Source: Natrialba asiatica DSM 12278 (GTDB taxonomy: Archaea; Halobacteriota; Halobacteria; Halobacteriales; Natrialbaceae). From it: a stretch of 32,521 nt of DNA. How positions within the stretch are numbered: position 1 is the stretch's first letter; every line of letters begins with the position of its first letter. Both the position numbers and the translations under genes were made by a program. Below the pieces are notes generated by a model. The model was not told where the DNA came from. It was given only the letters and a program-made list of their open reading frames with translations, and searched no databases. The stretch spans positions 108,032-140,552 of the forward strand of contig NZ_AOIO01000029.1 of the NCBI RefSeq assembly GCF_000337555.1. The letters run 5' to 3'. Positions 451-25,088 of the stretch are shown here, one piece after another.

Positions 451-1263
451 ATGAGCGAAGCGGACGCTGTCGATCGCGTTGCGGAGCCGGCTACCGTCTC
501 CACACTTACCGAGGAGTTTCGTGCACTCGGCGTCGGGGCCGGCGAGGTGGTGCTCGTCCACTCGTCGCTGTCGTCGCTCGGCTGGGTGGCAGGCGATGCC
601 CAGGCCGTCGTCGAAGCCCTTCGAAATGCGGTCACGCCCAGTGGGACGCTCGTCATGCCGACGCACACGACACAGTATTCCGACCCTGCTGTCTGGTCGA
701 ACCCGCCCGTTCCGGACGACTGGGTCGACACCATCCGCGCGTCGCGACCACCGTTCCGACCGGCCGTCACTCCGTCGCGAGGAATGGGTGCGATTCCGGA
801 GTGTTTCCGAACCTACGACGATGTCGTCCGGAGTTCGCATCCGGTCTACTCGTTCGCCGCGTGGGGTGCGGACGCCGAGGCGGTCGTCTCCGAGCACGGG
901 CTCGATTACGGACTCGGCGAGGACTCCCCGCTGGCGACCATCGCTGAACTCGGCGGAACGGTCTTGCTCCTCGGCGTCGGCCACGATTCCAACACGTCGT
1001 TGCACCTCGCGGAATATCGCGCTGCACTCGAGCGGGAGACGACGAGAAATACCGTCCCGATGCTCGAGGACGGCGACCGAGTGCAGCGGGAGTACGTGGA
1101 CATCGCCCAGTCGACCGACGACTTTCCCGAAGTCGGGGCGGCGTTCGAACAGCAGGGAGGATCAGCAGTGACGACGGGGACCGTCAGTGTGGCGACGGCT
1201 AGGCTCCTGTCCCAGCCGGAACTCGTCGACTTCGCTGTCGACTGGTTCGAGGCGAATCGGTGA
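451..1263 (+). CDS. AAC(3)-family aminoglycoside N3-acetyltransferase-like protein
   Basis: A 270-residue cytoplasmic protein with the full motif set of the AAC(3) antibiotic acetyltransferase family: VHSSLSSLGWV (36-46), PTHT (70-73), RSSHPVYSFAAWG (127-139) containing the family's conserved His130, GEDSPL (156-161), and VLLLGVGHD followed by LHLAE with His185. Length is typical of the family. Characterised members transfer acetyl from acetyl-CoA to an amine; several family members in non-producers act on other amines, so drug resistance should not be assumed, especially in an archaeon whose ribosome and envelope differ from the bacterial target. A TATA-like GGTATTAC at 419-426 lies about 28 nt before the ATG, fitting a nearly leaderless transcript. 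It is a single-gene unit between the ligase fragment and the tRNA gene. Confidence 0.85.
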   Translation: MSEADAVDRVAEPATVSTLTEEFRALGVGAGEVVLVHSSLSSLGWVAGDAQAVVEALRNAVTPSGTLVMPTHTTQYSDPAVWSNPPVPDDWVDTIRASRPPFRPAVTPSRGMGAIPECFRTYDDVVRSSHPVYSFAAWGADAEAVVSEHGLDYGLGEDSPLATIAELGGTVLLLGVGHDSNTSLHLAEYRAALERETTRNTVPMLEDGDRVQREYVDIAQSTDDFPEVGAAFEQQGGSAVTTGTVSVATARLLSQPELVDFAVDWFEANR

Positions 1264-4554: not shown

Positions 4555-4716
4555 GCGGGCGGCGAACCCGCTCGTAACTAGTTTGGCGCGACCGAACTCT
4601 TAGAAACGAGTTCTTCCAGTCGATTCGCCGGCCGTTCTAGCGCGAGTTCACCGGCGGCCGGAACGGCAGCGAGTGGGCCGGGGAAGGCTAAGTCCGTCAA
4701 CGGTGTCGTCCCTTCC
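4555..4716 (+). promoter_or_regulatory. Cluster of inverted repeats, possible structured mRNA leader
   Basis: Four stem-loops can be drawn in 162 nt just before the DsbA-FNT start. They are GCGGG/CCCGC (4555-4559, 4567-4571), GAACTC/GAGTTC (4594-4599, 4608-4613), CCGGCCG/CGGCCGG (4628-4634, 4655-4661), and GGAAGG/CCTTCC (4682-4687, 4711-4716) enclosing CCG-TCAA-CGG (4694-4703). The third stem competes with an alternative, GCCGTTC/GAACGGC (4631-4637, 4661-4667), as a switch would require. No known riboswitch class is recognised. In GC-rich DNA short stems arise by chance, so the functional reading is tentative. Confidence 0.3.
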
Positions 4717-4726
4717 AGAAGATCAA

Positions 4727-6241
4727 ATGAGTCGATCGACAGTCTCGACGCTTACGACTTCGGTCACGGAGCGCGATCATAGCCGCGGACCGGACGATGC
4801 GCCGTTGACGCTCGTACAGTACGCTGACTTCGAATGTCCGTCCTGCGGGAACCTATACGACGTCCTCGAGCGGCTACAGAACCAACTCGGCGATCAGTTT
4901 CGAGTCGTCTTTCGCCACTTTCCGCTCACGTCGGTCCATCCGCATGCGCTGCGCGCTGCAGAAGCGGCCGAGGCGGCCGCCGCCCAGGGAAAGTTCTGGG
5001 AGATGCACGACGTTCTCTACGAGAACCAGGGGGCGCTCGCGGCGGACGACCTGGTTCGTTACGCCGCCGAAATCGGGCTTGATACGGATCGATTCGTCCG
5101 CGAGTTAGAGAACGGCGTCCACCAGGAACGCATCGAGGCGGACGTTTCAAGCGGTGCCCAGAGCGGCGTCGACGGGACGCCGACGGTCTTCATTAACGGC
5201 CGTCGGTACGATGGGCCTGCCGAACTCGACGCGCTGCACGAGGCGATCGTTCGGGCGGGAGATATCACCGCTATCCAGGCGTCGATCCGGCATCGCGGGA
5301 GGGCGCTGCGCGATACGATCGACCGTTCACAAAGCGGGGCCCCGGCCGCGGGTGCGGCCATTCGGGATTACTTCTCGGCGGACGAGATTTTCCAGCGGAT
5401 CGTCGCCACCGCCGACGAGGAGTTCAGTCGGAGCAATCGTCTGTTATTCATGAGTGGGCTGGCAGCCGGGTTCGCGGTGACGCTGACGTTTCTTGCGCGG
5501 TCGGCGGTTACTGCGGCTGTTCCGTCCGATTCGGGGGAGTTGATCGGGAATCTGTTCTATCCGGTCGGCTTCGTACTCATCGTGATGGGGCGGTATCAAC
5601 TCTTCACCGAGAACACGCTCACGCCGGTCACGCTCGTGTTGACGCGCATCGCGAGTGTACGAAACCTACTTCGACTGTGGGTGGTTGTTATCGTTGCGAA
5701 CGTTCTCGGGGCGGCTCTCGGCGCTCTCGTCCTTGCGACCACGGGTGTGTTCACGTCCGAAGCTGCCACGGTTGCACGGGGGTTCGGCGAACACGCGTTT
5801 GCGACCGGCTGGTGGGATCTCTTTTTCAAGGCGGTGTTCGCGGGGAACATCGTTGCAGCGATGGTCTGGCTGGTGCACGCGAGTCAGGATACGACGGCGC
5901 GCTTTCTGATCATCGTTTTTCTCATGTTCTTGATCCCGGCGACCGATCTGTTCCACTGTATTACTGGCATGTGCGAGGTGCTTTACTTCGTCTTCCGCGG
6001 GCAAGAAACGCTCTGGGCTGCCATTGTGGAATTCTTCGTTCCGGTTACGCTCGGCAATATCGTCGGCGGCGTCTTGCTGGTTGCACTGCTCAACTACAGC
6101 CAGACGGCCGAGCGGCAATACCCGGATCGAGATGCGAGCCAGCTCAAACTCTCTTGGGCGGAGTGGCTATACAGCCGACAGACGGGTCACCCTCAGTCGC
6201 CATCGTTCAGTGGCGAGAACGACGACGAATTGACTGAGTAA
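4727..6241 (+). CDS. DsbA-like thioredoxin domain fused to formate/nitrite transporter (FNT) channel
   Basis: I place the start at the ATG at 4727 (504 residues); an upstream GTG at 4673 adds 18 residues that run through the GGAAGG/CCTTCC hairpin and add no domain. Residues about 20-180 are a DsbA-type thioredoxin fold: DFECPSCGN with active cysteines C37 and C40, and a TP cis-proline pair at 151-152 in VDGTPTVFINGR. Residues about 232-457 form a six-helix FNT channel: GNLFYPVGFVLIVMGRYQLFTEN, then DLFHCITG with His410 at the position of the central pore histidine, and GNIVGGVLLVALLNY. FNT proteins pass small anions such as formate, nitrite or hydrosulfide. No signal peptide precedes the thioredoxin domain and FNT N-termini face the cytoplasm, so the redox domain is probably cytoplasmic. 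Substrate is unknown; the fused CxxC suggests redox coupling or gating, which is inference. Confidence 0.88.
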   Translation: MSRSTVSTLTTSVTERDHSRGPDDAPLTLVQYADFECPSCGNLYDVLERLQNQLGDQFRVVFRHFPLTSVHPHALRAAEAAEAAAAQGKFWEMHDVLYENQGALAADDLVRYAAEIGLDTDRFVRELENGVHQERIEADVSSGAQSGVDGTPTVFINGRRYDGPAELDALHEAIVRAGDITAIQASIRHRGRALRDTIDRSQSGAPAAGAAIRDYFSADEIFQRIVATADEEFSRSNRLLFMSGLAAGFAVTLTFLARSAVTAAVPSDSGELIGNLFYPVGFVLIVMGRYQLFTENTLTPVTLVLTRIASVRNLLRLWVVVIVANVLGAALGALVLATTGVFTSEAATVARGFGEHAFATGWWDLFFKAVFAGNIVAAMVWLVHASQDTTARFLIIVFLMFLIPATDLFHCITGMCEVLYFVFRGQETLWAAIVEFFVPVTLGNIVGGVLLVALLNYSQTAERQYPDRDASQLKLSWAEWLYSRQTGHPQSPSFSGENDDELTE

Positions 6242-6475: not shown

Positions 6476-8236
6476 ATGAGTCGGACGTCTAGCCGCGACG
6501 AGATGGTATCGAACGAGAACAATACGGACGGCGAGTCGAGTTCACTCGAGACCTTGGTGATCGGCATCGACGCGGGTTGTTTGCCGGTGTTCGAGCGGTT
6601 GTTCGAAGACGATCGGATTCCGACGATCGAACGGCTGTGTTCCGATGGCGTCACTGCGCCGCTCGAGTCGCAGATTCCGCCGTGGACGCCGAGTGCTTGG
6701 CCCTCGGTGTATACCGGCGTCAATCCGGGAAAGCACGGGGCGATCGGATTCGTCGGCTACGATGGATACGATTGGCACGTGACGAGCAACGACGACGTTG
6801 CCGCACAGCCGTTGTGGACGTTGCTGGACCAGCAGGATCGGTCGAGCGTCGTCGTCAACGCGCCGGTGACGCATCCGCCGGACGAGTTCGATGGCGCGGT
6901 CATTCCCGGGTTCCTCGGCCCCGAAGACCCGCAGTGTCATCCGGCGGGACTGTTAGCGGAGGTTCGGGAGGCGATCGGCGAGTATCGGGTCTATCCGAAC
7001 TACACGCGTGATGACGAGTCGGTTCCGGAGTCCGTGAAGATGGCGGAGTACCAGCAACTGGCTCGTATGCGCGGAGCGGCCTTTCGCTATCTGGTCGACG
7101 AGTACGACCCCGACTTCGGGTTCTTGCAGTTCCAGAAGACGGATACGGTCTTCCACGAGTTCGCGGGAGACGAAGAGAAGGTCGAGACGATATACGAGGC
7201 GACGGACGAGGAGATTACGCGCGTTCTCGAGGCCTGTGATCCGGATCGGGTCTTCCTCGTGAGCGATCACGGCATGGGGCCGTACGAGGGCTACGAGTTC
7301 AGGCTGAACGAGTTCTTGCGCGACGAGGGATTCCTGGAGACGACGACGAGCGGAAAAGGGATGCCGTCGTGGACGCCGATGCGGCGGCGGCTCCGTGAGG
7401 GCGAGGAGTACGATACCTGGGAGCCGGGGACGGTCGCTCGGGCGGCGTCGGTCGCCGCGCAGTTCGGGATTACTGCCAGCCGGATTCGGACGGCGCTCGA
7501 GCGCGTCGGACTCGCCGATCTGGCCATCAAGTACGCGCCAAGCGGTGTGTCGCGGACGGCAAACGAGCAGGTCGACTTCAGCTCGTCGAAGGCCTACGTC
7601 CGCGCTCGCACTGAACTCGGCGTTCGGATCAACCTCGCGGGGCGTGAACCGATGGGCGTCGTTCCCCCATCGGAGTACGAGACCGTTCGCGAGGAGTTGA
7701 TCGAACTGCTTCGCGGCGTCGAAACGCCGGACGGCGAGTCGTTCTTCGAGACGGTCGAGCCGCGCGAGGAGTACTTCCACGGCGAGCACGTCGAGGAGAC
7801 GGTCGATATCGTCACGATTCCGACGGATTTCGAGCACACGATTTCGGAACAGTTCCGCGAGAACGCAACGACCTACTTCGGCCCGGTCGAGCCGTGGAAT
7901 CACAAGCTCGATGGGGTGTTCGTCGCTCTGGGCGAGGGGATCGACGAGACTGCCACACTCGAGCGGGCGCATCTGTTCGACGTTGCGCCCACGGTCATGG
8001 CTGCGATGGGGGTTCCCTACAGTGATCGGATGGACGGTGAGGTCGTTTCGGCCGTCGAACCGACCGACGCGATCGAGTATCCGGAGCACGAGGGTCGAGC
8101 GAGCAGCGGACTGACACGGGGAAACGAACGGGACCAGAATCAGAGCCGGGACCAGGACCAGGACCAGGACCAGACTGGACCCAATGCCGACGACGACGTG
8201 ACGGAGCGACTTGCCGATCTTGGCTACCTCAATTGA
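6476..8236 (+). CDS. Alkaline phosphatase superfamily hydrolase (type I phosphodiesterase/nucleotide pyrophosphatase-like)
   Basis: A 586-residue protein with the metal-binding signature set of this superfamily. It has VIGIDAG with Asp32, then PPWTPSAWPSVYTG (68-81), whose Thr71 is the expected nucleophile, then QKTDTVFHEF with Asp223 and His227, and VSDHGMG with Asp264 and His265. The C-terminus ends ERLADLGYLN, a tail typical of this subgroup. No signal peptide or membrane segment is evident, so it is probably cytoplasmic. Members hydrolyse phosphodiesters or phosphomonoesters, and haloarchaeal relatives are common beside glycan-assembly genes, where nucleotide-sugar or lipid-phosphate turnover is a reasonable guess. 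Residues about 553-567 are a Asp/Gln-rich repeat encoded by a hexamer tract, probably a flexible linker. A second start ATG 27 nt downstream (Met10) is possible. Confidence 0.85.
   Translation: MSRTSSRDEMVSNENNTDGESSSLETLVIGIDAGCLPVFERLFEDDRIPTIERLCSDGVTAPLESQIPPWTPSAWPSVYTGVNPGKHGAIGFVGYDGYDWHVTSNDDVAAQPLWTLLDQQDRSSVVVNAPVTHPPDEFDGAVIPGFLGPEDPQCHPAGLLAEVREAIGEYRVYPNYTRDDESVPESVKMAEYQQLARMRGAAFRYLVDEYDPDFGFLQFQKTDTVFHEFAGDEEKVETIYEATDEEITRVLEACDPDRVFLVSDHGMGPYEGYEFRLNEFLRDEGFLETTTSGKGMPSWTPMRRRLREGEEYDTWEPGTVARAASVAAQFGITASRIRTALERVGLADLAIKYAPSGVSRTANEQVDFSSSKAYVRARTELGVRINLAGREPMGVVPPSEYETVREELIELLRGVETPDGESFFETVEPREEYFHGEHVEETVDIVTIPTDFEHTISEQFRENATTYFGPVEPWNHKLDGVFVALGEGIDETATLERAHLFDVAPTVMAAMGVPYSDRMDGEVVSAVEPTDAIEYPEHEGRASSGLTRGNERDQNQSRDQDQDQDQTGPNADDDVTERLADLGYLN
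8131..8175 (+). repeat. Hexanucleotide repeat (GGACCA) inside coding sequence
   Basis: An imperfect then perfect run of GGACCA units near the 3' end of the hydrolase gene encodes alternating Asp and Gln. Because the unit is six bases, gain or loss changes protein length without a frameshift. It lies between the catalytic domain and the conserved C-terminal tail. Confidence 0.8.
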
Positions 8237-9572: not shown

Positions 9573-11240
9573 ATGTCGAAACGAAGTGGTATGCGGAACG
9601 CGATTCGGGGAAGTGGGGATGGATGGAACGATTCGGCGACAGCATCTGACGACGCTGCTGCGACAGCGACGGGGGGATCTGGCTCGAGTGGTGGGTCCGG
9701 CCGGTCGCGACGGACGTTCTTGCAAGGTGTCTCGGTTGCCGGCGCAACGGCGCTTGGCCTCGGAGCGGCAACGACGAACGGCGCGGCCGTACACGAGTAC
9801 GGTGAAGAGTTCGATAACGTTGTTAACGTCGTCGACGCGGGGATGGACAACACCGGGCGGAGATCGATTACGCCTGTACTCGAGGACCTTCGTGCGGACA
9901 ACACGTTGCTGATCTTCCCCGAGGGCGAATACTACATCGACGAACAGTTCCGGTTTACCGGATTCGAGAAGTTCGGTATGGTCGGGGATGGAGCGACGCT
10001 CGTGCCGGCGAACTATCACGAGTTCGATGGTCCGCAGTTTCGGTTATTCCGTCTCGGCGTCTCCTATAGACCGGGTGGTCACCTGCTGTTCGCAGGGTTC
10101 GACGTCGACCAGACGGCACCGGATACGGGGATTCGGGTCATCGAGGCGACAGCCGAAGACCACCTCGAAGTACGGGACGTGACGATTCACGGCGAACACG
10201 ACAGCGGGACGTGGGGTCCTGGTATGTTCGCCATGGCCGATCCGGACGGTTACGGCATCATCGAACGATTCCGTGCGCCCGACGGCGGCGTCCACGCGGA
10301 TCAGACGCCCAACGCGGGGAATATCTGGCGCGGTCCGATCGGGATCGAAGCGAACACGAACGTCGGTCACCTCGAGTTCAGCGATTGTGAACTCGGCGGC
10401 TTCCCGGACAACGGGCTGTACGCGATTAACGAGGAGGGGACGATCGTCGTCGACGGCGGCGAGTTCAGAAACAGCAACGGCGCGAACGTTCGCGTCGGCG
10501 GTGAGGGAAGCGTCGTCAGGAACGCGACCGTCGAAATCGATCGGACGCGGTCGTACGACCGCGGACAGCGGGGCGTTCGACTCGAGAACGGGAAGAACCT
10601 CCAGATCGACGACGTCGATATCTCGATCACGTCGCTCCAGCCGACCAACCACGCGCTTTCGGTGATGAACACGTGCGAGTCCTCGAAGATCAAAGACACG
10701 AACATCGAGATCAGCGGCGATCGAGTCAACCACGGGATCGTCGTCTCGCCGGAAGCGGGCTACACCTACATCTACGACGGCGAGATCGATTACAACGCCG
10801 CGGGTGGGTATCCGCTGTGGATTCGAGACAGCGACCGGGACGAACGGGTACTCGTCGAACTCCTCGATATCTACGGCGAGGCCGGCGTCACCTCGGCTGG
10901 CTTCCGTGACGACATCCGGTGCAGCCGGGACAACTGTCGGTTCAGTCACGTCTCCGTCGACCAACCGGGTCGCAACGGTGCCGACCGGAACGCCGTCTTC
11001 CTCAACGGGAACGACGCGACCTTCTACGAGTGCACCTTCCGTGCAAACCAGTACCCGTACATCGACAACGGCGACGGGAACCTGCTCCGGAACTCGACGG
11101 TCGAATCCTACGAGGGCCAGGAGGGTATCCGACTCTATCCCGGCATCGATAACCCCCAGTTCAAAGTGAACGAAATCGTCAACGGAATCGACGACCTCGG
11201 TGCGGACGACGTCGTCACCTGGAACAATACGATCGTGTAG
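9573..11240 (+). CDS. Tat-exported right-handed beta-helix protein (pectate lyase-like fold)
   Basis: A 555-residue secreted protein. An unusually long polar N-region of 45 residues, rich in Gly, Ser and Ala, precedes the Tat motif SRRTFLQG (45-52) and a hydrophobic segment ending in AAVHEYG, so cleavage near residue 72 is likely. The rest is a parallel beta-helix: ILLIFPEGEY-type opening (LLIFPEGEYYIDEQF, 112-126), then repeated short strands with Asn/Asp/Gly turns such as EGTIVVDGGEFRNSNGANVRVGGEGSVVRNATVEI. Proteins with this fold bind or cleave acidic polysaccharides as lyases, hydrolases or epimerases. I cannot assign catalytic residues, so the reaction is not called. With the export genes around it, processing or anchoring of the cell's own surface polymer is the likely role. 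Confidence 0.85.
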   Translation: MSKRSGMRNAIRGSGDGWNDSATASDDAAATATGGSGSSGGSGRSRRTFLQGVSVAGATALGLGAATTNGAAVHEYGEEFDNVVNVVDAGMDNTGRRSITPVLEDLRADNTLLIFPEGEYYIDEQFRFTGFEKFGMVGDGATLVPANYHEFDGPQFRLFRLGVSYRPGGHLLFAGFDVDQTAPDTGIRVIEATAEDHLEVRDVTIHGEHDSGTWGPGMFAMADPDGYGIIERFRAPDGGVHADQTPNAGNIWRGPIGIEANTNVGHLEFSDCELGGFPDNGLYAINEEGTIVVDGGEFRNSNGANVRVGGEGSVVRNATVEIDRTRSYDRGQRGVRLENGKNLQIDDVDISITSLQPTNHALSVMNTCESSKIKDTNIEISGDRVNHGIVVSPEAGYTYIYDGEIDYNAAGGYPLWIRDSDRDERVLVELLDIYGEAGVTSAGFRDDIRCSRDNCRFSHVSVDQPGRNGADRNAVFLNGNDATFYECTFRANQYPYIDNGDGNLLRNSTVESYEGQEGIRLYPGIDNPQFKVNEIVNGIDDLGADDVVTWNNTIV

Positions 11241-12734: not shown

Positions 12735-14375
12735 ATGAACAGAAGTCTCGCTAGCGGTATCTTTTCGGTCGTCAGCACAAAAGTTATCGTTCTCGTCGTC
12801 ACGGCACTTTCGACGCCGCTTCTGTACCGGTTTCTCGGTGCGTCGGGATTCGGTGACTACTCGTTCTTGATGTCGGTGTTCGCGATCTACATGATCTTCG
12901 TGAGCTCCGGTATCACGGATGGTGTGCGGAAGTTCCTCGCCGAGGACCGACCGAAAGCGAACTGGCGCAAACACGTCGTCGGCTACTACTTTCGTCTTGC
13001 ACTCGTCCTTTCGGCCGCTGGAGCAGTGCTCATGCTTCTTGCCGCCTATTTCGACCTCGTCGGGAGTGCCTTCGGCGGCGGGTTGTCGCAGTACTTCTAC
13101 GCGCTCGCACTGCTCGTCATCACCGCCCAGTTTCGTGACTACGCTCGCAAGACCCTCATGGGATTCGGCCTCGAACGCTACTCCGAACCGCTGAAAGTCC
13201 TCGACAAGGTCGGCTTCGTCATCGTCGCCATCCCGCTTGCCTACCTCGGTGCTGGCGTTTTCGGCGCACTCGTCGGCCACCTCGTCGCGAGTATCCTCGT
13301 CGCGGCCGTCGGTCTCGTCCTCATTCACCGCCGCGTTCCGCTTTCGTCGGTGTTCGACCGACCCGGCGATAACTTCCCCCGGAAGACGATGCTCACGTTC
13401 AACTCGATGAGCATCGCGCTCGTCTTCCTCCTGATGTCGCTCTATCACATCGACATCATCATGCTCCAGCAGTTCCGCACGAGCGCCGACGTCGGGAACT
13501 ATCGCGCCGCCCTCGCTATCGCCGAGTTCCTCTGGTTCGTCGGCATCGCCCTCCAGACCGTGTACGTTCACTCGACGTCCGAACTCTGGTCGCAGAACCG
13601 CCACCGACAGATTACTGAACTCGCCTCCCGGACGACCCGCTATACGTTTCTCCTAACGGCGATTATGGCTGTCGGCCTCGCGTCACTCGCCGATGTCGCC
13701 ATCCCCATTTACTTCGGTTCCGAAGCGAAGCCGGCGATTGAGCCCCTCCTCCTCCTCCTCCCCGGTGCGCTGGGATTCGCACTGGCGCGCCCGATCCTCG
13801 CCATTTCGCAGGGGAACGGCAAACTCCGGTATCCGGTTGCGGCAACCGGAGCTGCAGCCGGCATCAACCTCGTTCTCAACGCGCTGTTGATTCCTCGCTA
13901 CGGGATGCACGGCGCGGCAGTCGCAACGAGCATCGGGTACGGCTCGATGTTCGCGTTTCACTGCCTGAGCGCCCGCGTTATCGGATTCGATCCCCTCGCT
14001 GACGCACGACTCGGCCGTGGTGTGGTTGCAGCGCTGCTCGCCGGCGCCCCCATCCTCTCGCTCTCGATGGCGATTACGAACCCACTGCTCGCGCTCGCGG
14101 TCGTCCCACCGGTCGGCTTCCTGACCTTCGTCGGCTTCGCGCTCCTCGTCGGCGCGCTGGACCCGACGGAGCCGTTCGAAATCCTCGGGATGCTCCCCGA
14201 TCCGATCGGTTCGAAAGCGGATGCGATGCACAACCGAATCGATCGCCGAGTCAGTAGTACTGACACCCCCTCACGCGGCTGGTTCCAGCGCATCCTCTTT
14301 ATCGTCGGCCTCTCGCTGCTCGCGTCCGGGCTCGCACTCGGGCTGCTTGGTCCGGCACTCAATTCCCTACTGTGA
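12735..14375 (+). CDS. Wzx-like polysaccharide flippase (MOP superfamily)
   Basis: A 546-residue integral membrane protein with about 14 hydrophobic segments. The N-terminus (MNRSLASGIFSVVSTKVIVLVVTALSTPLLYRFLGASGFGDYSF) has the classic layout of the polysaccharide biosynthesis/MATE-like flippases, and residues near 150 (ARKTLMGFGLERYSEPLKVLDKVG) match the conserved cytoplasmic loop. The C-terminal third contains ARPILAISQGNGKLRYPV and a final single helix after a polar loop at about 490-515. It would move lipid-linked oligosaccharide from the inner to the outer face of the cell membrane. It is divergent from the deacetylase gene and not part of an operon. Which glycosyltransferase products it carries is inferred from proximity. 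Confidence 0.92.
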   Translation: MNRSLASGIFSVVSTKVIVLVVTALSTPLLYRFLGASGFGDYSFLMSVFAIYMIFVSSGITDGVRKFLAEDRPKANWRKHVVGYYFRLALVLSAAGAVLMLLAAYFDLVGSAFGGGLSQYFYALALLVITAQFRDYARKTLMGFGLERYSEPLKVLDKVGFVIVAIPLAYLGAGVFGALVGHLVASILVAAVGLVLIHRRVPLSSVFDRPGDNFPRKTMLTFNSMSIALVFLLMSLYHIDIIMLQQFRTSADVGNYRAALAIAEFLWFVGIALQTVYVHSTSELWSQNRHRQITELASRTTRYTFLLTAIMAVGLASLADVAIPIYFGSEAKPAIEPLLLLLPGALGFALARPILAISQGNGKLRYPVAATGAAAGINLVLNALLIPRYGMHGAAVATSIGYGSMFAFHCLSARVIGFDPLADARLGRGVVAALLAGAPILSLSMAITNPLLALAVVPPVGFLTFVGFALLVGALDPTEPFEILGMLPDPIGSKADAMHNRIDRRVSSTDTPSRGWFQRILFIVGLSLLASGLALGLLGPALNSLL

Positions 14376-14895: not shown

Positions 14896-15972
14896 CTAGT
14901 ACACCTGCGTCTCGAGGTGCTCGCTCTGGGCCATATCGAACACCATCGCGAAGAGCAAGAGCGCGACGCCGAAGATGAAGACCAGGAAACTCGCCATTCC
15001 CTGGAGGAACGGAAGCGTCAACTGCGAGAGGGCGATGAACAGCGTCCAGAGTCCACCGACCATCCCGATCGCGGAGGTTCCCGCCCCGAGTAGGTAAAAG
15101 AGTGCGAGCGGGTGGAAGTCGAGGGCGAGGTATTTCGTCTTGAGTCGCCAGAGGAAGTTCTTGAGGAGCATCGTCGAGACCTTCGGAATGTACTCCGAGT
15201 AGGTGATGCTCGACTCCTCGTCGCCGTAGACGGCGGGCATCGACACGTCTGCCACGGCCGCGTCGTTGACGTTTAACTTCACCAGCAGGTCGTTGCAGTA
15301 GCCGTAGTACTCGTAGAGTGACTCGAGTTCGATCGCTTCCAGGGCGTCCTGAGAGATGGCCGTGTACCCGTTCTGCGGGTCCATCGTCTTCCAGTAGCCG
15401 GATGCGACCTTGGTGAGGAAGGTAAGCATGGTGTTGCCGATGAACCGAAAGCGGGGCATGGCGTCCCGGTATTCGGCGGCGAGTAGCCGATTCCCCTTGG
15501 TATAGTCGGCGGTGCCCTCGACGATCGGGTCGAGCAGCCGCGACATCTGGGAGAGGTCCATCTGGCCATCCGCGTCGACGGTGACGGTCGCGTCGACGCC
15601 GTCCGCACGAGCGGCGAGGTAGCCGGTTTTGATCGCCCCGCCCGCACCGCGGTTTTCACGGTGCTGGATCGGGACGACGCGCCCGATCGGATCGTGGACG
15701 ACGGCTCGGTTCGACAGGGCCGAGGTGCCGCCGTCAGGTGCGAGTTCAGCCCGGTGGGTCGCGGCTGCACGGTCCGAGCCGGTCTCGGCTGCGCGCTTGT
15801 CACGATCCGCCCTGGCCGCGTCGTGGATTTCCTCCCAGGTGCCATCGGTCGACCGGTCGTCGATGAGGTACAATCGGTCGACGTACGCCGGCATCTCGCG
15901 GATCACGTCGCCGACGAATCCTTCCTCGTTGTAGGCCGGAATCACGACGCCGACGCTGGAGTCTCGGTACAT
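14896..15972 (-). CDS. GT2 glycosyltransferase, dolichyl-phosphate sugar synthase-like, with C-terminal membrane helices
   Basis: A 358-residue protein. The GT-A fold begins GVVIPAYNEEGFVGDVIREMP, has IDDRSTDG (Asp38, Asp39) and the metal-binding DAD at 133-135 in VTVDADGQMDL, followed by MDPQNGYTAIS, the acceptor-loop motif of DPM1-like and DPG synthase enzymes. Two membrane segments (about 280-305 and 320-345) anchor it. The family transfers a sugar from a nucleotide donor to dolichyl phosphate on the cytoplasmic face, supplying a lipid-linked sugar for later glycan assembly. An insertion between about 55 and 97 (Ala-, Asp- and Arg-rich) makes the N-terminal half longer than usual. It ends the minus-strand pair with the deacetylase-like gene upstream, 146 nt away, separated by a hexamer repeat. 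Confidence 0.9.
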   Translation of the reverse strand: MYRDSSVGVVIPAYNEEGFVGDVIREMPAYVDRLYLIDDRSTDGTWEEIHDAARADRDKRAAETGSDRAAATHRAELAPDGGTSALSNRAVVHDPIGRVVPIQHRENRGAGGAIKTGYLAARADGVDATVTVDADGQMDLSQMSRLLDPIVEGTADYTKGNRLLAAEYRDAMPRFRFIGNTMLTFLTKVASGYWKTMDPQNGYTAISQDALEAIELESLYEYYGYCNDLLVKLNVNDAAVADVSMPAVYGDEESSITYSEYIPKVSTMLLKNFLWRLKTKYLALDFHPLALFYLLGAGTSAIGMVGGLWTLFIALSQLTLPFLQGMASFLVFIFGVALLLFAMVFDMAQSEHLETQVY

Positions 15973-16118: not shown

Positions 16119-17411
16119 TCATGCATCGGAGAGTTCGGATGCGGTGACGACATCGACATCCGCGGCATCGATGTACTCGAGGAGGTCCTCGAACGCGGTT
16201 TCGGCCATGCCGTCGGGACCGATCTCTTCGAAGTGCAAGACTGCGAGTTGACCGTACGCTTCGGCGTGGTCGACGTACGTTCTCGTCGTTGCACCCGCCT
16301 CCCCGGAGAAGAACCCGAGGTTGTACGGGTCCGAAATCGGCAGTGCGTTCGGAGACCCACCGTACCGGAGCGCTCGGTCGTGATACTCCTGGACGAGTTC
16401 ACGCGTCGTTGGGCCGAGAACGTTTCGTGGAGTGATGAAGGTCCCCGCGCCGTCTTCGAAGCCGCGGGTCTCGAGCCAGCCGGCCGTCTGCTCGATCACT
16501 CGTTCTTGCTCCTCGGCGGAGAAGTCGGTGATGTTCTGGGACCCCGTTCGTGGACGGGCAGCGAGATCCCAGCCGGCCTCGGCTAGCTCGTCGAGTTCAC
16601 TGAGCGAGAGTCGGCCGTTGTCGTCGTTGCCGACGGCTTCGGGGATCACGGCTTCGACGCCGGTGAAGTCGTACGTGGAGAGGTGCTCGAGCGCGATTTC
16701 GTGATGGCTCTGAAGCGTTCCGTTGAACAGGAGCATGACCTTGCCCGTGTCGGGGCGGGGGGCGGTGCGAAGGTCGTCGATCGAACACTCGATCGGGCCG
16801 GAGTCGCTGCCGCGTCGGCGGGCCGAGAGGCGGATCTCGCGGACGGACGAGAGGTCGGGATTGCCGTCGACGTCCGTCGTGCCGAAGTCGACGCGGGTCC
16901 AGCTGTCGTTCGGTCCGACGAGGGTGCGCCGGAGCCGGTGAACGATATTCGAGTTCGGCGCGAAGAGTTCGAGCGTCAGCGTGAGTTGGTCCTGTTCGGC
17001 GAATTTGACCGCCAGCGAGAGGTTCGAGTCGCTCAGGTCCGTTCCGCCGGAGATGGTCCGGTAGATGCCGGCGTATTCGGTCCCCTCGGGTGCGGTGAGG
17101 CGGGCGGACTGGGAGCCGCTGTAGGGGTCGTCCTCATCGGCTTCGAAATCGCCCTCGTCGAGCAACGTGACCCAGTCGTCGAGGGTGTCGAAGGAGTTGA
17201 TGGTTTCACCCGGCAGGTCGGCGGGGTCGGCGTAGTGGAACGGTGTCGTCTCGTCGTCGGAGTCGTCCGCGTCGCCGTTTGAGTCGGCGTCGGAATCGTC
17301 GTCACCGTTCCCGCCACCCCACTCTTCGATGCTCGAGAGGCAGCCGGCGACGCCGAGTGTGCCGACCGCCGCGGTCGCCGCCACGAACGATCGTCGATTG
17401 CTGTTCGTCAT
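16119..17411 (-). CDS. Tat-exported NodB-like lipoprotein with degenerate active site
   Basis: A 430-residue protein with a Tat signal (NRRSFVAAT, 5-13) and lipobox VAGC (Cys24), then an acidic Asp/Gly linker (31-56). Residues about 70-222 form a beta-sandwich domain (FDTLDDW, then GSQSARLT, then SIDDLRTAPRPDTGKVM) that is clearly shared with the gene at 21803-23137. The NodB-fold domain follows, but the two catalytic Asp are replaced in VMLLFNGTLQSHHE (225-238) and the His-x-x-x-His is replaced in WDLAARPRTGSQ (281-292). A metal-dependent deacetylase cannot work without these. It is therefore likely a binding protein or pseudoenzyme derived from a deacetylase. TATA box at 17442-17448, about 34 nt upstream of the ATG, supports the start. 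Confidence 0.85.
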   Translation of the reverse strand: MTNSNRRSFVAATAAVGTLGVAGCLSSIEEWGGGNGDDDSDADSNGDADDSDDETTPFHYADPADLPGETINSFDTLDDWVTLLDEGDFEADEDDPYSGSQSARLTAPEGTEYAGIYRTISGGTDLSDSNLSLAVKFAEQDQLTLTLELFAPNSNIVHRLRRTLVGPNDSWTRVDFGTTDVDGNPDLSSVREIRLSARRRGSDSGPIECSIDDLRTAPRPDTGKVMLLFNGTLQSHHEIALEHLSTYDFTGVEAVIPEAVGNDDNGRLSLSELDELAEAGWDLAARPRTGSQNITDFSAEEQERVIEQTAGWLETRGFEDGAGTFITPRNVLGPTTRELVQEYHDRALRYGGSPNALPISDPYNLGFFSGEAGATTRTYVDHAEAYGQLAVLHFEEIGPDGMAETAFEDLLEYIDAADVDVVTASELSDA

Positions 17412-17441
17412 TGATCCCGTCGAGGACTGGTTGGGTCTTTC

Positions 17442-17448
17442 TTATACA
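17442..17448 (-). promoter_or_regulatory. TATA box of the degenerate NodB gene
   Basis: On the minus strand the sequence reads GTATAAG, about 34 nt before the ATG at 17411. It faces the divergent promoter of the glycosyltransferase at 17574 across roughly 100 bp, so both may share upstream regulatory DNA. Confidence 0.5.
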
Positions 17449-17538
17449 CCTCTTAGCGCCCACAGCAACCCGAATCGTTGCCGGGGACCCAATCTGTGGG
17501 TGGGCAAGGAATCCACTGGTAGCGGTGCTTATGCGCTC

Positions 17539-17573: not shown

Positions 17574-18662
17574 ATGGCACACGAACGGTCAGAGCCGCGC
17601 GTCAGCGTCGTGATTCCGACGTACAACAGAGCCGAGACCCTGCCGACGGCGATCGATAGCGCGCTCGAGCAGACGGTCGAGGAAATCGAAGTCATCGTCG
17701 TCGACGATGGCTCGACGGACGACACGCCAGCGGTGCTCGCGAGCTACGACGATCCCCGAGTACAGCCGGTCGTCCACGCGGACAATCAGGGGGCAAATGT
17801 CGCCCGAAACACCGGTATCGACCACGCTCGTGGCGAGTACATCGCGTTCCTCGATTCCGACGACGAGTGGCGTCCCGAGAAACTCGACCGCCAGCTCGAG
17901 ACGCTCGGAACGCGCTCGGAAGCGTGGGTCGCCGCCTACTGTGATACCACGCTGGAACTTCCCGAGACGAGCGACAAATTCCGCGGTCTCGCCGCCGCCG
18001 TCCTCTCCCGGTCGGACGCGGAGCCGACCCGGGAGGGCGGCGAGGAACTGATCGGCGAAATTCTGGCGGACAACGTCCAGCCGGGGGCCGGCTCGACCCT
18101 CCTCGTCGAAACCGAGGTTGCCCGCGATATCGGCGGTTTCGACGAAGAACTCGACCGATTCCAGGATCCGGAGTTCTGTCTGCGCATCCTCAAGGAAGGA
18201 AAACTCGCCTACGTCGACGACGAACTCGTCGTTCGCGAGGAAACCGGCCATCCGCCGGCAGCCGTCATTAAAGCTGCCGATCAGCAGTACCTCTCGCGGT
18301 ACGAAGACGAGGTCGATCGCTTCGAGGCTGCGGGATACGACATTCGTGCGCGTCACAACCTCCTCCTCGGAAAGCGATACCTCGCCGAGGGACGGTTCCT
18401 GCGCGGCGCGTGGCACCTCCGATCCGCAACGCTCTCCCGACGCCGCTATCCGGGGCTGTGCTGGGCTGCTGGAACCGGCGTTCGACGGCGTCCGAAGACG
18501 GTCGCCGCAACCGTGTTCCTCTTTGCGCTGCTCACCGTGGGCCTCGTCACCGCCACCTCCCGAATCCCGCTGTGTAGTGCGACTACAAACAGCCCCGATG
18601 TCGACGAGTTCTCGACGGACGCGGGTTCGACGCGCGCCGAATCGGAGTCGGCAGACGAGTAA
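17574..18662 (+). CDS. GT2 family glycosyltransferase with C-terminal membrane segment
   Basis: A 362-residue enzyme with a textbook GT-A domain: RVSVVIPTYNRAETLPTAI (9-27), VVDDGSTDDTP (42-52), NQGANVARNTGIDHARGEYIAFLDSDDEW with the metal-binding DSDD at 94-97. The segment FDEELDRFQDPEFCLRIL (about 190-207) contains the ED-type acceptor region. One hydrophobic helix near 305-325 and a short Ser/Asp-rich tail suggest membrane anchoring with the catalytic domain in the cytoplasm. It transfers a sugar from a nucleotide donor to a growing lipid-linked glycan; donor and acceptor are not predictable. It is co-oriented with the ATP-grasp gene 93 nt downstream. Confidence 0.93.
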   Translation: MAHERSEPRVSVVIPTYNRAETLPTAIDSALEQTVEEIEVIVVDDGSTDDTPAVLASYDDPRVQPVVHADNQGANVARNTGIDHARGEYIAFLDSDDEWRPEKLDRQLETLGTRSEAWVAAYCDTTLELPETSDKFRGLAAAVLSRSDAEPTREGGEELIGEILADNVQPGAGSTLLVETEVARDIGGFDEELDRFQDPEFCLRILKEGKLAYVDDELVVREETGHPPAAVIKAADQQYLSRYEDEVDRFEAAGYDIRARHNLLLGKRYLAEGRFLRGAWHLRSATLSRRRYPGLCWAAGTGVRRRPKTVAATVFLFALLTVGLVTATSRIPLCSATTNSPDVDEFSTDAGSTRAESESADE

Positions 18663-18755: not shown

Positions 18756-19925
18756 ATGAACGTCCGAACGCTGTACCATACGGCTCGAGGGCTGCAGGGA
18801 CTCGCGGGGACGGAGTACGAGAGCGATGTTTCCCCGCCGCTTCAGCGTCGGCTGTGGCTCTGGCGGCGCGGCTTCCTGAGTCGCTCCGATGCGATCTACG
18901 ATCTGGACGAGGAGTCAGCGCAGGACTACGTCAACGACTATCAGCGGTTCGTTCGAACGAAGCGCATTAACGGTACCTGGTCGGTTGCGCTGTCGAACAA
19001 ACTCCTGTTTCATCGGGTGATGCAGCCCTTCGACGAGCAGCGGATGACCGTCTACGGAATGGTCGCTGACGGCTCGTTCCACTCGGTCGATGCGATGGCC
19101 GAACGGTCCGAACTGACCGACGGTGGAAGCGTCGTCGCCGAGTCCGCGGGCGATGGAGGCGTGGTGGGTGATGCGGGCGACGAGTTCAGTCGAGCAGAAG
19201 GCCGGTCGCATAACGCCGCTCAACGGGTCGTCGAACGCCTCGAAGTCGAGGATTCGCTGGTGCTCAAGTGGGTCCACGGCGGCGGCGGGAACAACGTCTT
19301 GCTGTGTTCCCGTTCACCGGACGGCTACCGGGTGAACGGCGAGCACCACACTGAGGCGGAGTTTCGATCAGTAGTCGCGAACCTGGACGAGTACCTCGTC
19401 TGTGAGTACGTCGAGCAGGGGTCGTTCCCGGACGAGCTGTATCCGGAGACGCCGAACACGCTTCGGTTCATCACGATGTACGACGAGGTCGATCACGAGC
19501 CGTTTATCGCGGCGGTGATCCATCGAATCGGCACCGGTGACTCGGAGCCGCTCGACAACTTCACGCAGGGAGGTCTCTCCGCAGCCATCGATCCCGAAAC
19601 GGGTGAACTCGGGGCCGGTGCACGGCCGCCGGCACACAGCGGTGAGCGCGTGTCGTGGCACGAAACCCATCCGGATACCGGGACGCAGATCGAGGGCAGG
19701 CAGGTTCCCGGCTGGCAGCAGATTCGCGATTCGGTGCTCGAAATGGCGTCGACGGCCTCGTTCCTCCCGTACATCGGCTGGGACGTGATCGTCACCGACG
19801 ACGACGGATCGTTCTCGGTTATCGAAGCCAACAGCTATCCGGGGCTCAAGTCGATCCAGGTTCACGGCCCGCTGCTGGCCGACGACCGAGTGCGGCGGTT
19901 CTACGAACGCCACGACGTGTGCTAA
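18756..19925 (+). CDS. Sugar-transfer-associated ATP-grasp protein
   Basis: A 389-residue cytoplasmic protein matching the ATP-grasp family found in polysaccharide clusters. The ATP-binding lysine and glycine-rich loop are visible in VLKWVHGGGGNNVLL (Lys171, 175-180). The hinge is YLVCEYVEQ (213-221), FTQGGLSAAID follows (269-279), and the metal-binding end is GWDVIVTDDDGSFSVIEANSYPG with Asp343, Glu357 and Asn359. ATP-grasp enzymes activate a carboxylate as acyl phosphate and join it to an amine or other nucleophile. The sugar-transfer-associated branch has no established reaction. Acid-amine ligation onto a glycan precursor, for example an amino acid or other acid on an amino sugar, is the reasonable inference. 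It likely has its own weak promoter (CTAATA about 28 nt before the ATG). Confidence 0.88.
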   Translation: MNVRTLYHTARGLQGLAGTEYESDVSPPLQRRLWLWRRGFLSRSDAIYDLDEESAQDYVNDYQRFVRTKRINGTWSVALSNKLLFHRVMQPFDEQRMTVYGMVADGSFHSVDAMAERSELTDGGSVVAESAGDGGVVGDAGDEFSRAEGRSHNAAQRVVERLEVEDSLVLKWVHGGGGNNVLLCSRSPDGYRVNGEHHTEAEFRSVVANLDEYLVCEYVEQGSFPDELYPETPNTLRFITMYDEVDHEPFIAAVIHRIGTGDSEPLDNFTQGGLSAAIDPETGELGAGARPPAHSGERVSWHETHPDTGTQIEGRQVPGWQQIRDSVLEMASTASFLPYIGWDVIVTDDDGSFSVIEANSYPGLKSIQVHGPLLADDRVRRFYERHDVC

Positions 19926-21802: not shown

Positions 21803-23137
21803 TCAAAACGGGTCCGTTCGTAGCTTCCACAGGTCATCGAAAGTAATAACCTCGACATCCGCATTATCGACGTACTCGAGGAACGTCTCGTAATCGCCCT
21901 CGGGCATCGTGTTATTCGCGTCGAACTCGTGGAAGTTCAGGATCGTACACTGGTTGTGCGCCTCGGCGAGATCGACACACCGTTTCGACGTACTCAGGTC
22001 GTGTCCGATCGTCCGCGGCAACGCCATCGGGTCGAATCCGTAGACGGTCGTCGTGTTGACGTTCCCCGACTGGTTGAATCCGCCGCAGTAGTGATAGTCC
22101 GTGAGATACTCGAGGCTCGTCTTGTCGTAACTGTTGTTCGGATAAACGATGTAATCCGCGCCCTCGAACTCGTTCTCGATGAACCAGTTCTTATCGCTCC
22201 GGATACGGTTCTCGAGTTCAGCGTCGTCGTCGTACTCGTGGAGCGACGTGTGCGTTCCGTGGACGACGATTTGATCGCCTTCCTTCTGGCGATCCTGGAG
22301 TTCCGAAACGGACATGATGCCGTTTCGCCCTTCGACTACCCACCGCGGGACGACCGCCTGGACCGCCGTGAAGCCGAACTCGTCGTGCAGCGGCGCGGCC
22401 GTGTCGTAGAAATCGCGCGTGCCGTCGTCCCAGGTCAGCATGACGTAGCCCGTCTCCGGTTTCCGGTGGGTCCGAAGGTCGTCGATCCAGATCTCGGCCT
22501 CGTCCATGGAGTGGAGAACCCGAATTTCGAGTCGGTCGGCATTGTCCAGCGTCGGCGCGATATCGCTCTCTTCGAAGACGCCGGGGCTTGCGCGGAACCA
22601 GCCGATATCGGGAGTGCGATACGTGATCTCGCGAAGCGAGTAGATCCGATCGCTCCCGTAGGAGTCGACGACGCGCAGGTTGACTGTGATGTCCTGGGGC
22701 GTCGTGGTCCGAACGGCAAAGGAGTAGTCGTTGTCGGTCAGGTCCGTTCCCGAGACATCGCGTTGTGCGACGATGGTCTGGCCGTTCTCGCTCGTCAGAT
22801 GGAGGCTTTGGGAGCCGTCGAAAGCAACGTCCTGGTCGGTCTCGCCCGATCCGCGCGTGATCTCCCAAGCATCGAGATCCTCGAAGTCATCGAGGGAGTC
22901 GCCCGGTTGGCCGTACTCCGTACGGCTATTGTACTCGGTTTCGAGGGGCGGAACGCCATCGGTGAGTGCGGCGACGTCTGACTCCCCGTTCTCGGCGGAC
23001 TCGTTTCCCGACGACCCGTCGTCGACCGAGCCGCCGCGCAGTGACTTGAGCCGGTCAGTACAGCCTGCCAATCCAGCAACCGCGGCGACGCTCGATCCGG
23101 CGAGAAAGCGGCGTCGCGTTGCTCGTCCATCTGTCAT
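21803..23137 (-). CDS. Tat-exported NodB-type polysaccharide deacetylase lipoprotein, with N-terminal beta-sandwich
   Basis: The protein is taken from the ATG at 23137 (444 residues). A longer frame to 23188 would place its first 17 residues across a TATA box, and the Tat motif TRRRFLAG (residues 7-14) fits the shorter start. A lipobox AGC (Cys26) suggests lipid anchoring. A beta-sandwich domain (about 80-228) matches that of the 16119-17411 gene. The NodB domain keeps its active site: YVMLTWDDGT with Asp237 and Asp238, and VHGTHTSLH with His296 and His300. It should be a metal-dependent deacetylase acting on a polysaccharide at the outer cell surface. Later motifs include IVYPNNSYDKTS and NFHEFD. 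It lies tail-to-tail with the acylase-like gene. Confidence 0.88.
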   Translation of the reverse strand: MTDGRATRRRFLAGSSVAAVAGLAGCTDRLKSLRGGSVDDGSSGNESAENGESDVAALTDGVPPLETEYNSRTEYGQPGDSLDDFEDLDAWEITRGSGETDQDVAFDGSQSLHLTSENGQTIVAQRDVSGTDLTDNDYSFAVRTTTPQDITVNLRVVDSYGSDRIYSLREITYRTPDIGWFRASPGVFEESDIAPTLDNADRLEIRVLHSMDEAEIWIDDLRTHRKPETGYVMLTWDDGTRDFYDTAAPLHDEFGFTAVQAVVPRWVVEGRNGIMSVSELQDRQKEGDQIVVHGTHTSLHEYDDDAELENRIRSDKNWFIENEFEGADYIVYPNNSYDKTSLEYLTDYHYCGGFNQSGNVNTTTVYGFDPMALPRTIGHDLSTSKRCVDLAEAHNQCTILNFHEFDANNTMPEGDYETFLEYVDNADVEVITFDDLWKLRTDPF

Positions 23138-23381: not shown

Positions 23382-25088
23382 ATGAACAAAGAACTGTTTG
23401 GTGTATTCGGTGGTAGCGAGACGTTCGAGCGGTTTCGATCGCGCGACGAGTTCGACGAGGTCCTCTCCGGACCGTCGCTTACAGTTGCGATCAGAGATCC
23501 CGGCCTCGACTATCCGGGCTGGAGCGCGACGTATGCGGACGAAACCGGCTGCTGTGTGATCTGGGGCGAGGCCTACGTTCCCGGTGACGAGCAAAACGCC
23601 GCACGCTGGCTGCTCGACCGGTACGACGCGAACGGCCTCGATGCGCTGGACGCGCTCAACGGTTCGTACCTGGCCGTCCTCGATATCGACGGTGAAACGC
23701 CGTTCGTCGCAACCGATCTCGTGCGCTCACGGGAGTGTTTCTACACCGACGACCCCGGTCCGCTCGTCTTCGGTACCGACGCCGCCGAAGTCGGACGGAC
23801 GATTCCGGGCCCCTCACTCGACCGGAACGGTATCCTCGAGTTCCTCCACATGGGCCTCGCGCTCGGAGAGAAGACGTGGATAGACGAACTCTCGCGGCTC
23901 CCGATCGATAGCCGGCTGACACCGCACGGCGTCGACTCCCTTTCCCGGTTCGTCTACCGGCCGGCCGACCCCGACGCCTTCGACTACGTGGACGAACTCG
24001 CGTCTCGACTCGAACGGGCGCTGCGACGGCGCTCGTCGAATCCCGGGCCGAAGGGGCTCTTGCTCTCTGCGGGGTACGATTCGCGCATCGTGCTCTCACA
24101 GGTCGACGACATCGACCACTGTTACACCGTCGGCTCGCCGGAGGCACAGGAAGTGCAGGGTGCAAAACGGGTTGCGAACCAGTACGGTGCAACACACACC
24201 GCGTTCCAACCGGACGAACGCTATCTGCTCGCCGACGAGTTCAAGGTCCAGTACTCACAGGGGATCAAAGAGTCGCTCCATATTCATCACGCCGGCTATA
24301 CGGACGAACTCACGGACGAAGTCGAGACGATGTACCACGGCCTGCTCTGTGATACGTTCTTCCGCGGGCACTTTACCGCACAAGACGGGGTCGACGTGCT
24401 CGGGACGTGGGTGCCGTTTCAGCGACTCGATCCCGATCCCGACCCGGTTGCGGTCTTCCTCGACAAGTACGGGTACAGCCGCGAGCAGAGCATCGAACTG
24501 ACCGAGCGGACGGGAATCGACAACGATCCGGAACGGTTCGTCGAAGAGGCGGTCGCCGCCGAATTTGCCGCCAATCGCTCGCGCGCAGATTGCATTCAAA
24601 ACGCCCTAACCTGCTGTGGTATCGCCAATCAGCCGTCCGTTCCGTTCCACAATCACCTCGCCGACCAGTTTTTTGCCCCGTTTCTGGCAACCGATCGCGA
24701 ACTGCTCGAGTGGCACCTCCGAACGCCCCCGCGCCTCCGGACGACTGAGACCTTCTTACAGGCTTGCAAACAGCTCGATGACGATATCCTCCGTCACCGA
24801 CCGCCGGATCGTCCACACGACGGCATGCTGCTAAACGAAGTCGAAGGGTTCGTCAGGCGCAAGACGCCGCTTCTGACCTCGTTTGAGCCCCCGTGGCCCG
24901 ACCGGCGAACGCTCTTCGAGCAACACGGATTCAATGACCGACTGCTCGGTGACTACGAGAACATCCACCCGATAGCACCCAGACACAAACTCCGCGTGGC
25001 CGACCTGCAAACGTGGCTCGACTCCTGGGATGCAGTTGCTAGTGACACAATCCCATGGTTGCAATCACCACCACGGATTATGTCCTAG
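23382..25088 (+). CDS. Asparagine synthetase-like protein lacking the glutaminase cysteine
   Basis: A 568-residue cytoplasmic protein with the two-domain layout of AsnB. The N-terminal half (about 1-170) has the class II glutamine amidotransferase fold, including LNGSYLAVLDIDGE and LVFGTDAAE, but begins MNKELFGVFGG: the essential Cys2 of the family is absent, so glutamine cannot be the ammonia source through this domain. The C-terminal half has the pyrophosphate loop LLLSAGYDSR (226-235; SGG-x-DS in the family), so ATP-dependent adenylation of a carboxylate is plausible. Such AsnB-like proteins in surface glycan clusters have been linked to amidation of sugar acids; which substrate is used here is unknown. 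It follows the deacetylase divergently and has no clear TATA box nearby. Confidence 0.85.
   Translation: MNKELFGVFGGSETFERFRSRDEFDEVLSGPSLTVAIRDPGLDYPGWSATYADETGCCVIWGEAYVPGDEQNAARWLLDRYDANGLDALDALNGSYLAVLDIDGETPFVATDLVRSRECFYTDDPGPLVFGTDAAEVGRTIPGPSLDRNGILEFLHMGLALGEKTWIDELSRLPIDSRLTPHGVDSLSRFVYRPADPDAFDYVDELASRLERALRRRSSNPGPKGLLLSAGYDSRIVLSQVDDIDHCYTVGSPEAQEVQGAKRVANQYGATHTAFQPDERYLLADEFKVQYSQGIKESLHIHHAGYTDELTDEVETMYHGLLCDTFFRGHFTAQDGVDVLGTWVPFQRLDPDPDPVAVFLDKYGYSREQSIELTERTGIDNDPERFVEEAVAAEFAANRSRADCIQNALTCCGIANQPSVPFHNHLADQFFAPFLATDRELLEWHLRTPPRLRTTETFLQACKQLDDDILRHRPPDRPHDGMLLNEVEGFVRRKTPLLTSFEPPWPDRRTLFEQHGFNDRLLGDYENIHPIAPRHKLRVADLQTWLDSWDAVASDTIPWLQSPPRIMS

Follow-up and report, generated by a model that had tools for sequence, protein, structure and literature searches.

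In the haloarchaeal family Natrialbaceae, we observe a lipoprotein of NodB-type architecture in which the metal-site residues have given way to a fixed new signature while the gene has stayed under purifying selection. The gene was examined in a window of 32,521 nucleotides from Natrialba asiatica DSM 12278 (contig 29, positions 108032-140552, within a 4.4-Mb genome) and is referred to below as the pseudo gene. Our preferred reading, to which we give a probability of about 0.55, is that its product would be a non-catalytic, glycan-binding surface lipoprotein descended from a NodB-type protein with a metal site.

The pseudo protein consists of a twin-arginine (Tat) signal, a lipobox at Cys24, an acidic linker, a β-sandwich region, and a NodB-like region (Table 1). 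A twin-Arg motif followed by a lipobox Cys, as expected of haloarchaeal Tat lipoproteins, occurs in all 62 distinct orthologs, among which the closest named relatives of the window copy are those of Natrialba taiwanensis and N. aegyptia (97% identical). An earlier note on this DNA, made from the sequence alone, described a complete frame and an architecture shared in full with a second, intact NodB-type protein in the window. Both descriptions hold: the gene runs from ATG to stop, and the two proteins align end to end with 30% identity (149 bits, E = 6e-45), or 32% in a second alignment.

Table 1. Features of the pseudo gene and its neighbours, in positions of the window; "regions" are the 55 compared cluster regions.
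Feature	Position	Strand	Basis and occurrence
Pseudo-NodB Tat lipoprotein	16119..17411	(-)	Complete 430-aa ORF from ATG to stop; metal ligands absent
Tat signal with lipobox Cys24 (MTNSNRRSFVAATAAVGTLGVAGC)	17340..17411	(-)	Sequence reading; pattern in 62/62 orthologs
β-sandwich, presumed carbohydrate-binding	16764..17220	(-)	Approx. residues 65-216; region homologous to the HFTV1 gp31 galactose-binding-like domain
Former motif 1, LLFNGTLQSH	16704..16733	(-)	Residues 227-236; metal Asp to Gly231, catalytic Asp to Asn230; alignments
Former motif 2, RPRTGSQ	16536..16556	(-)	Residues 286-292; RPxTG fixed in all intact orthologs; alignments
Former motif 5, LHFEEIG	16218..16238	(-)	Residues 392-398; catalytic His to Glu395; alignments
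Promoter-like element CTAAGAGGTGTATAAGAAAG	17437..17456	(-)	About 25 bp 5' of ATG; conserved in nearly all orthologs
Intact NodB-type Tat lipoprotein	21803..23137	(-)	WDDG, HGTH, motif-5 His; PF01522 1.3e-8
Pectate-lyase-like β-helix protein	9573..11240	(+)	Weak PF12708 1.8e-5, below curated cut-off; 50/55 regions
Flippase, Wzx-type polysaccharide exporter	12735..14375	(+)	PF01943 7e-13; 51/55 regions
GT2a, glycosyltransferase family 2	14896..15972	(-)	PF00535 6.1e-17; downstream of pseudo gene, co-directional; adjoins it in 37/55 regions
GT2b, glycosyltransferase family 2	17574..18662	(+)	PF00535 5.1e-37; divergent from pseudo gene; 52/55 regions
Sugar-transfer-associated ATP-grasp protein, accessory	18756..19925	(+)	PF14397 1.4e-32; 18/55 regions
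Asparagine-synthase-like protein	23382..25088	(+)	PF00733 4.2e-7; 50/55 regions

We assign the pseudo protein to NodB because it aligns with its paralog, because a profile of the ortholog group matches chain TC of 8qpg over nearly its full length (E = 1.1e-27), and because profile-profile comparison returns NodB at 100% probability. The same ortholog-group profile also matches 6dq3, a polysaccharide deacetylase, at 9e-4, and by homology to solved NodB domains the protein would have the NodB homology domain as its fold. In Pfam searches, the window pseudo copy shows no domain at E < 0.1, whereas the intact copy is recognized as Polysacc_deac_1 at 1.3e-8; 8 of 16 members of the pseudo group match PF01522 weakly, the best at 0.0021. 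AlphaFold models of the two proteins, made with sequences from the window and two close species alone, have pLDDT values of 37 and 39, too low for judging a distorted (β/α) barrel. The matched structure, 8qpg, shows the turret of HFTV1, a virus of haloarchaea (PMC12494034). Its head protein gp31 is described as a trimer that combines a galactose-binding-like domain with a deacetylase domain that has a Zn site, and a role in binding and modifying host glycans has been proposed for it (PMC12494034). In our alignment the metal site of gp31 is intact, with D211-D212, HGYNH at 266-270, and the motif-5 His. By homology, the sandwich of the pseudo protein is probably galactose-binding-like as well.

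The residues on which CE4/NodB enzymes depend are replaced in three motifs. In motif 1, LLFNGTLQSH stands opposite LTWDDGTRDF of the intact neighbour (pairwise alignment), placing Asn-Gly at the site of the Asp pair; in motif 2, AARPRTGSQ stands opposite VVHGTHTSLH, with the Arg and Thr of RPxTG at the positions of the two metal His; and in motif 5, LHFEE stands opposite LNFHEF, with Glu395 at the position of the catalytic His (Glu or Asp in 50 of 51 non-redundant sequences). The metal His are missing from 62/62 orthologs, in agreement with the earlier note, which had also regarded both Asp as gone. The latter is true of the window protein. Across the orthologs it holds for the metal Asp, which is absent from all 62 distinct sequences (its position is always Gly, Ser, or Ala), but not for the catalytic Asp230, which most orthologs keep; Asn takes its place only in the window species, in N. 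taiwanensis and N. aegyptia, and in an extra copy from another genome (G113). The window protein is altered beyond its orthologs in two positions, Asp230 to Asn and Glu234 to Gln. A shifted but intact D-D/HxxxH set was looked for in the ortholog alignments and none was found, there being no conserved alternative HxxxH with a paired Asp. Among 23 relatives of the intact protein, D237, D238, H293, H296, and H403 are invariant; of the motif first read there as HGTHTSLH, the invariant His are those of HGTH (H293 and H296), and the last His varies. Lacking its metal ligands, the pseudo protein could not follow the mechanism described for CE4 enzymes (PMC4505593, PMC10967932), and we infer that it has lost both activity and metal binding.

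Profile searches across 125 Natrialbaceae genomes recover the pseudo gene in 60, as 63 copies (62 distinct sequences) of which one is frameshifted. The group is sharply bounded, with intact pseudo orthologs scoring above 620 bits and the next family member 365. Every intact ortholog has RPxTG in place of the metal His. In a non-redundant set of 51 sequences, Arg286 is invariant despite the use of five different Arg codons, as are Pro287, Thr289, Gly290, Trp281, His236, Pro328, and Asn330, and the stretches LFNGTLQSH and GWDLAARPR rank among the most conserved of the protein. For close pairs, dN/dS is 0.08-0.17 in the pseudo gene, compared to 0.06-0.15 for the intact gene in matching pairs. Catalytic residues have thus been lost while purifying selection has been kept, the pattern of a conserved pseudoenzyme. 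The orthologs keep the same substitutions rather than random ones in disrupted frames, and the retained pseudoenzyme that the earlier note had proposed is supported at the sequence level by fixed replacements in 62 orthologs, purifying selection, and the conserved promoter described below. The seemingly frameshifted copy (L167; G135 contig C38, approximately 175015-176282) is split into two overlapping frames and may be a real pseudogene or a sequencing error. Genome G113 holds three extra pseudo copies (L146, L149, and L151 on contigs C3, C2, and C4) outside the polysaccharide cluster, with genes for a P-type ATPase, a universal stress protein, and a CNNM/CorC-type protein near L151.

When the motif columns are left out of a maximum-likelihood tree, the pseudo orthologs form one clade (support of 100/100) and the group of the intact neighbour another (100/100), with other lineages separating the two (100/99). 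A recent duplication of the intact neighbour is ruled out by these two distant, fully supported clades, and with it the history implied at first, that of a broken paralog of the neighbour. The closest relatives of the pseudo clade (L192-L206) are instead sequences mostly from other families of the order, at 36-53% identity, although the exact sister group has moderate support (87/79). These relatives read TFDDSH..H, AHPNVQ, and LFHEV, so that both Asp (catalytic and metal), the first His, and the motif-5 His are still in place. Their motif 2 already lacks the second His of the classical HxxxH, which was therefore seemingly lost or replaced earlier. Three of them (L192, L194, and L205), together with a sequence from the same family as the window (L048 of G007), lie beside cluster genes in varying combination, namely a flippase, glycosyltransferase, asparagine-synthase-like, or pectate-lyase-like gene, and in the stretches around these four we detect no further NodB belonging to the intact group. 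Because the nearest relatives keep the Asp pair, the first His, and the motif-5 His, some of them in the same kind of cluster, the loss of the metal site maps to the stem of the pseudo ortholog group. The simplest history would be that the cluster began with one metal-bearing NodB lipoprotein and that the family gained a second, intact NodB, with the resident protein losing its metal site but being kept. That second NodB may have taken over deacetylation.

Such losses recur more widely. By parsimony, the metal Asp changes at least seven times on the sampled trees, and the wider haloarchaeal family includes further lineages with lost triads. One of these is represented in the genome of the window strain by a third full-length paralog that lies outside the window (L002; G000:C29:152707-153966), lacks the metal His, and reads FYDG and SYPSVS; members of its group elsewhere are often longer. 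Only 31 of 91 sampled relatives keep the full triad, in a sample biased towards the pseudo protein, and this serves as a warning that the name "polysaccharide deacetylase" often stands, in haloarchaea, for something other than a typical deacetylase.

We compared 55 cluster regions, each of up to 20 kb, and observe the recurring order HTH, pectate-lyase-like, (NodB3), flippase, (GT2a), pseudo gene, GT2b, (ATP-grasp), (AspA/PKD), intact NodB, and asparagine-synthase-like; the intact NodB is present in 47 regions. The polymer of this cluster is probably an exopolysaccharide. In the genome paper of Natrialba magadii, two genes, Nmag_3271 and Nmag_3278, appear as polysaccharide deacetylases, and the product of Nmag_3272 is given as a polysaccharide biosynthesis protein. 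Gene order would make Nmag_3271 NodB3, Nmag_3278 the intact NodB, and Nmag_3272 the flippase, and the N. magadii pseudo gene between them was apparently left out of the deacetylase count. The asparagine-synthase-like protein of the window starts with MNKELFGVFGG, without the Cys that a class II glutamine amidotransferase should have at its N-terminus; therefore, glutamine use may be absent. Elsewhere in the window, an ORF at 4673-6241 (+) has the unusual fusion of a DsbA/thioredoxin-like domain to a formate/nitrite transporter domain, and one at 451-1263 (+) strongly matches the aminoglycoside 3-N-acetyltransferase family (3.6e-89), whose true substrate in a haloarchaeon may differ.

Upstream of the pseudo gene, what had been called a good-looking promoter is a putative TATA-type element that recurs before nearly all orthologs at a near-fixed distance, in the form CTAA-N6-TATAAGAAAG, i.e., CTAA-N6-TATAAG[A/G]AAG. 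It is a single site in the window genome at ≤1 mismatch, and its spacing to the ATG would suit a leaderless or short-leader transcript in haloarchaea. We also read the interval between GT2a and GT2b in ten clusters that have only the intact gene (within L178-L187). The CTAA-N6-TATAAG element is kept in 10/10, and most of the ten visibly retain the first pseudo codons (MTNRNRR...), after which a short open frame of 38-87 codons ends at or overlaps the GT2a start. The retained pieces differ: bases 1-50 and 180-251 of the pseudo gene in L178 and L183, 1-252 in L182, 1-85 and 1209-1263 in L184, 1-106 in L187, and just the first 20-30 or so in L179, L180, L185, and L186. The remaining promoter and start remnants rule out that the gene was never present in these clusters. 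From the differing pieces behind a kept promoter and start, we conclude that the gene was once present and that several deletions, different from one another and spread over three genera, took it out. The pseudo gene is useful, but its repeated deletion in relatives shows that its role is dispensable. The scar frames (e.g., L184, approximately 6536-6980) resemble short upstream ORFs, retained as though for translational coupling.

These observations can be assembled into a glycan-binding role as follows. The ancestor would have been a NodB-type protein that had the Asp pair, a metal His, and the motif-5 His and probably already belonged to this cluster. These residues were replaced along the stem of the ortholog group, while the two-domain architecture, the surface anchoring, the promoter, and the former cleft stayed under selection. 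Judging by its signal, the protein would be exported by Tat, anchored by lipid, and surface-facing where the cluster polymer is assembled, and the separate intact NodB found in most clusters of the family could supply any deacetylase activity. The galactose-binding-like sandwich and a rebuilt cleft (RPxTG, H236, N330, R349, and D361) would then bind the cluster glycan and so tether, organize, or protect the polymer at the cell surface. The glycan-binding role is argued from a homologous domain whose own ligand is a proposed one. The fixed position between glycosyltransferase and flippase genes and the homology to gp31 over nearly the full length favor this glycan-facing reading; against it are the repeated deletions and the Asp230 that most orthologs keep, where some residual or new chemistry could still take place.

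The earlier note had offered two roles, a surface lectin or a partner of the active deacetylase, and the distribution of the two genes bears on the choice. Among the 125 family genomes, 57 carry both genes, 3 the pseudo gene only, 20 the intact gene only, and 45 neither (Fisher p = 1e-14, uncorrected for kinship), and for 56 of the 63 pseudo copies the intact gene is found 1.2-8.6 kb upstream in the same orientation. That the intact gene accompanies the pseudo gene in 57 of 60 genomes, often this close, is what a non-catalytic partner or regulator would call for, and the homologous HFTV1 protein is a trimer; in a mixed oligomer, the dead copy could position the substrate or activate the live one. 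However, linkage is expected of any two genes in one cluster, ten clusters dropped the pseudo gene while the intact one stayed, and the three extra copies in G113 lie away from the cluster. Because each gene occurs without the other, the partner proposal is weakened to an unlikely one, and a surface lectin appears to fit better.

It is rather improbable that the pseudo protein is a re-tooled enzyme, in which the cleft would run another, metal-free reaction on the polymer, in the way that PuuE allantoinase does in a NodB fold. Asp230 is present in nearly all orthologs, an acidic residue is found at 395 in 50/51, and His236, Asn330, and RPxTG are invariant, all of which would suit such a site, and a metal-independent NodB-fold enzyme does exist (PMC10967932). 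Nonetheless, no known active-site pattern was recognized, and the window clade has changed Asp230 to Asn and Glu234 to Gln without a rise in dN/dS, so that the best candidate catalytic residue is unneeded there. New metal-free chemistry is thus possible in the Asp230-bearing orthologs and less likely for the window copy. A more specific version, with a new metal-free site of Asp230, His236, RPxTG, Asn330, Arg349, Asp361, and Glu395 that performs a different polysaccharide reaction and is again reduced in the window clade, is distinctly improbable. That the gene is an inactive remnant being lost is very improbable, since the ten clusters with truncated remnants and the frameshifted L167 weigh less, over the whole ortholog family, than the invariant replacement residues, the low dN/dS, the complete frames, and the conservation of the promoter element across approximately 60 genomes.

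The pseudo protein offers a well-resolved example from nature of a protein of enzyme type turned likely non-enzyme in place. The switch maps to one branch, relatives that bear a metal site occupy clusters of this kind in other families, a new residue signature has become fixed, and the later deletions provide natural knockouts in close relatives. These features make a pseudo-deacetylase role in surface-polysaccharide assembly directly testable in archaea. Our literature searches found no description of the pseudo protein or its haloarchaeal family.

When compared to known systems, the closest solved relative by profile is HFTV1 gp31 (8QPG), which shares the sandwich and NodB domains over the full length (PMC12494034). 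Unlike the pseudo protein, gp31 has an intact DD/HGYNH/motif-5 His site with bound Zn and is a virus structural protein without Tat signal or lipobox, whereas the pseudo gene sits in a conserved chromosomal polysaccharide cluster rather than a virus genome. HFTV1 is the sole relative in phage records, and a search of IMG/VR with the ortholog profiles found no viral relatives. The gp31 gene (L213, 245-1486) is homologous to host surface lipoproteins over both sandwich and NodB, and capture from a host is possible. Among cellular proteins, the intact neighbour and its orthologs are likewise Tat lipoproteins with sandwich and NodB in the same cluster, but they belong to a separate clade in which both the catalytic and the metal Asp are retained, as are HGTH and the motif-5 His; L192-L206, the closest clade, some of which lie with the same cluster genes, differ from the pseudo protein in keeping the catalytic and metal Asp, the first His, and the motif-5 His but not the second HxxxH His. 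BA0330 and BA0331 of Bacillus anthracis are lipoproteins without measurable deacetylase activity that stabilize the cell wall, and they resemble the pseudo protein in joining an N-terminal β-sandwich to a NodB domain (PMC4505593). They differ in retaining the zinc ligands (BA0330 binds zinc), in binding peptidoglycan, and in having an Fn3-like sandwich (PMC4505593), whereas the pseudo protein has no metal ligands, belongs to an archaeal host without peptidoglycan, and is encoded in a polysaccharide cluster. EcCDA (2VYO) and Ba0150 (4M1B) are NodB-fold CE4 proteins described as inactive, the former without both metal His and the catalytic Asp (PMC10967932). Their hosts and architectures are different and no fixed RPxTG has been described for them, whereas the pseudo protein is conserved across approximately 60 species. 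Pseudo-deacetylases are therefore already known elsewhere, and the protein described here is an archaeal variant rather than a new kind.
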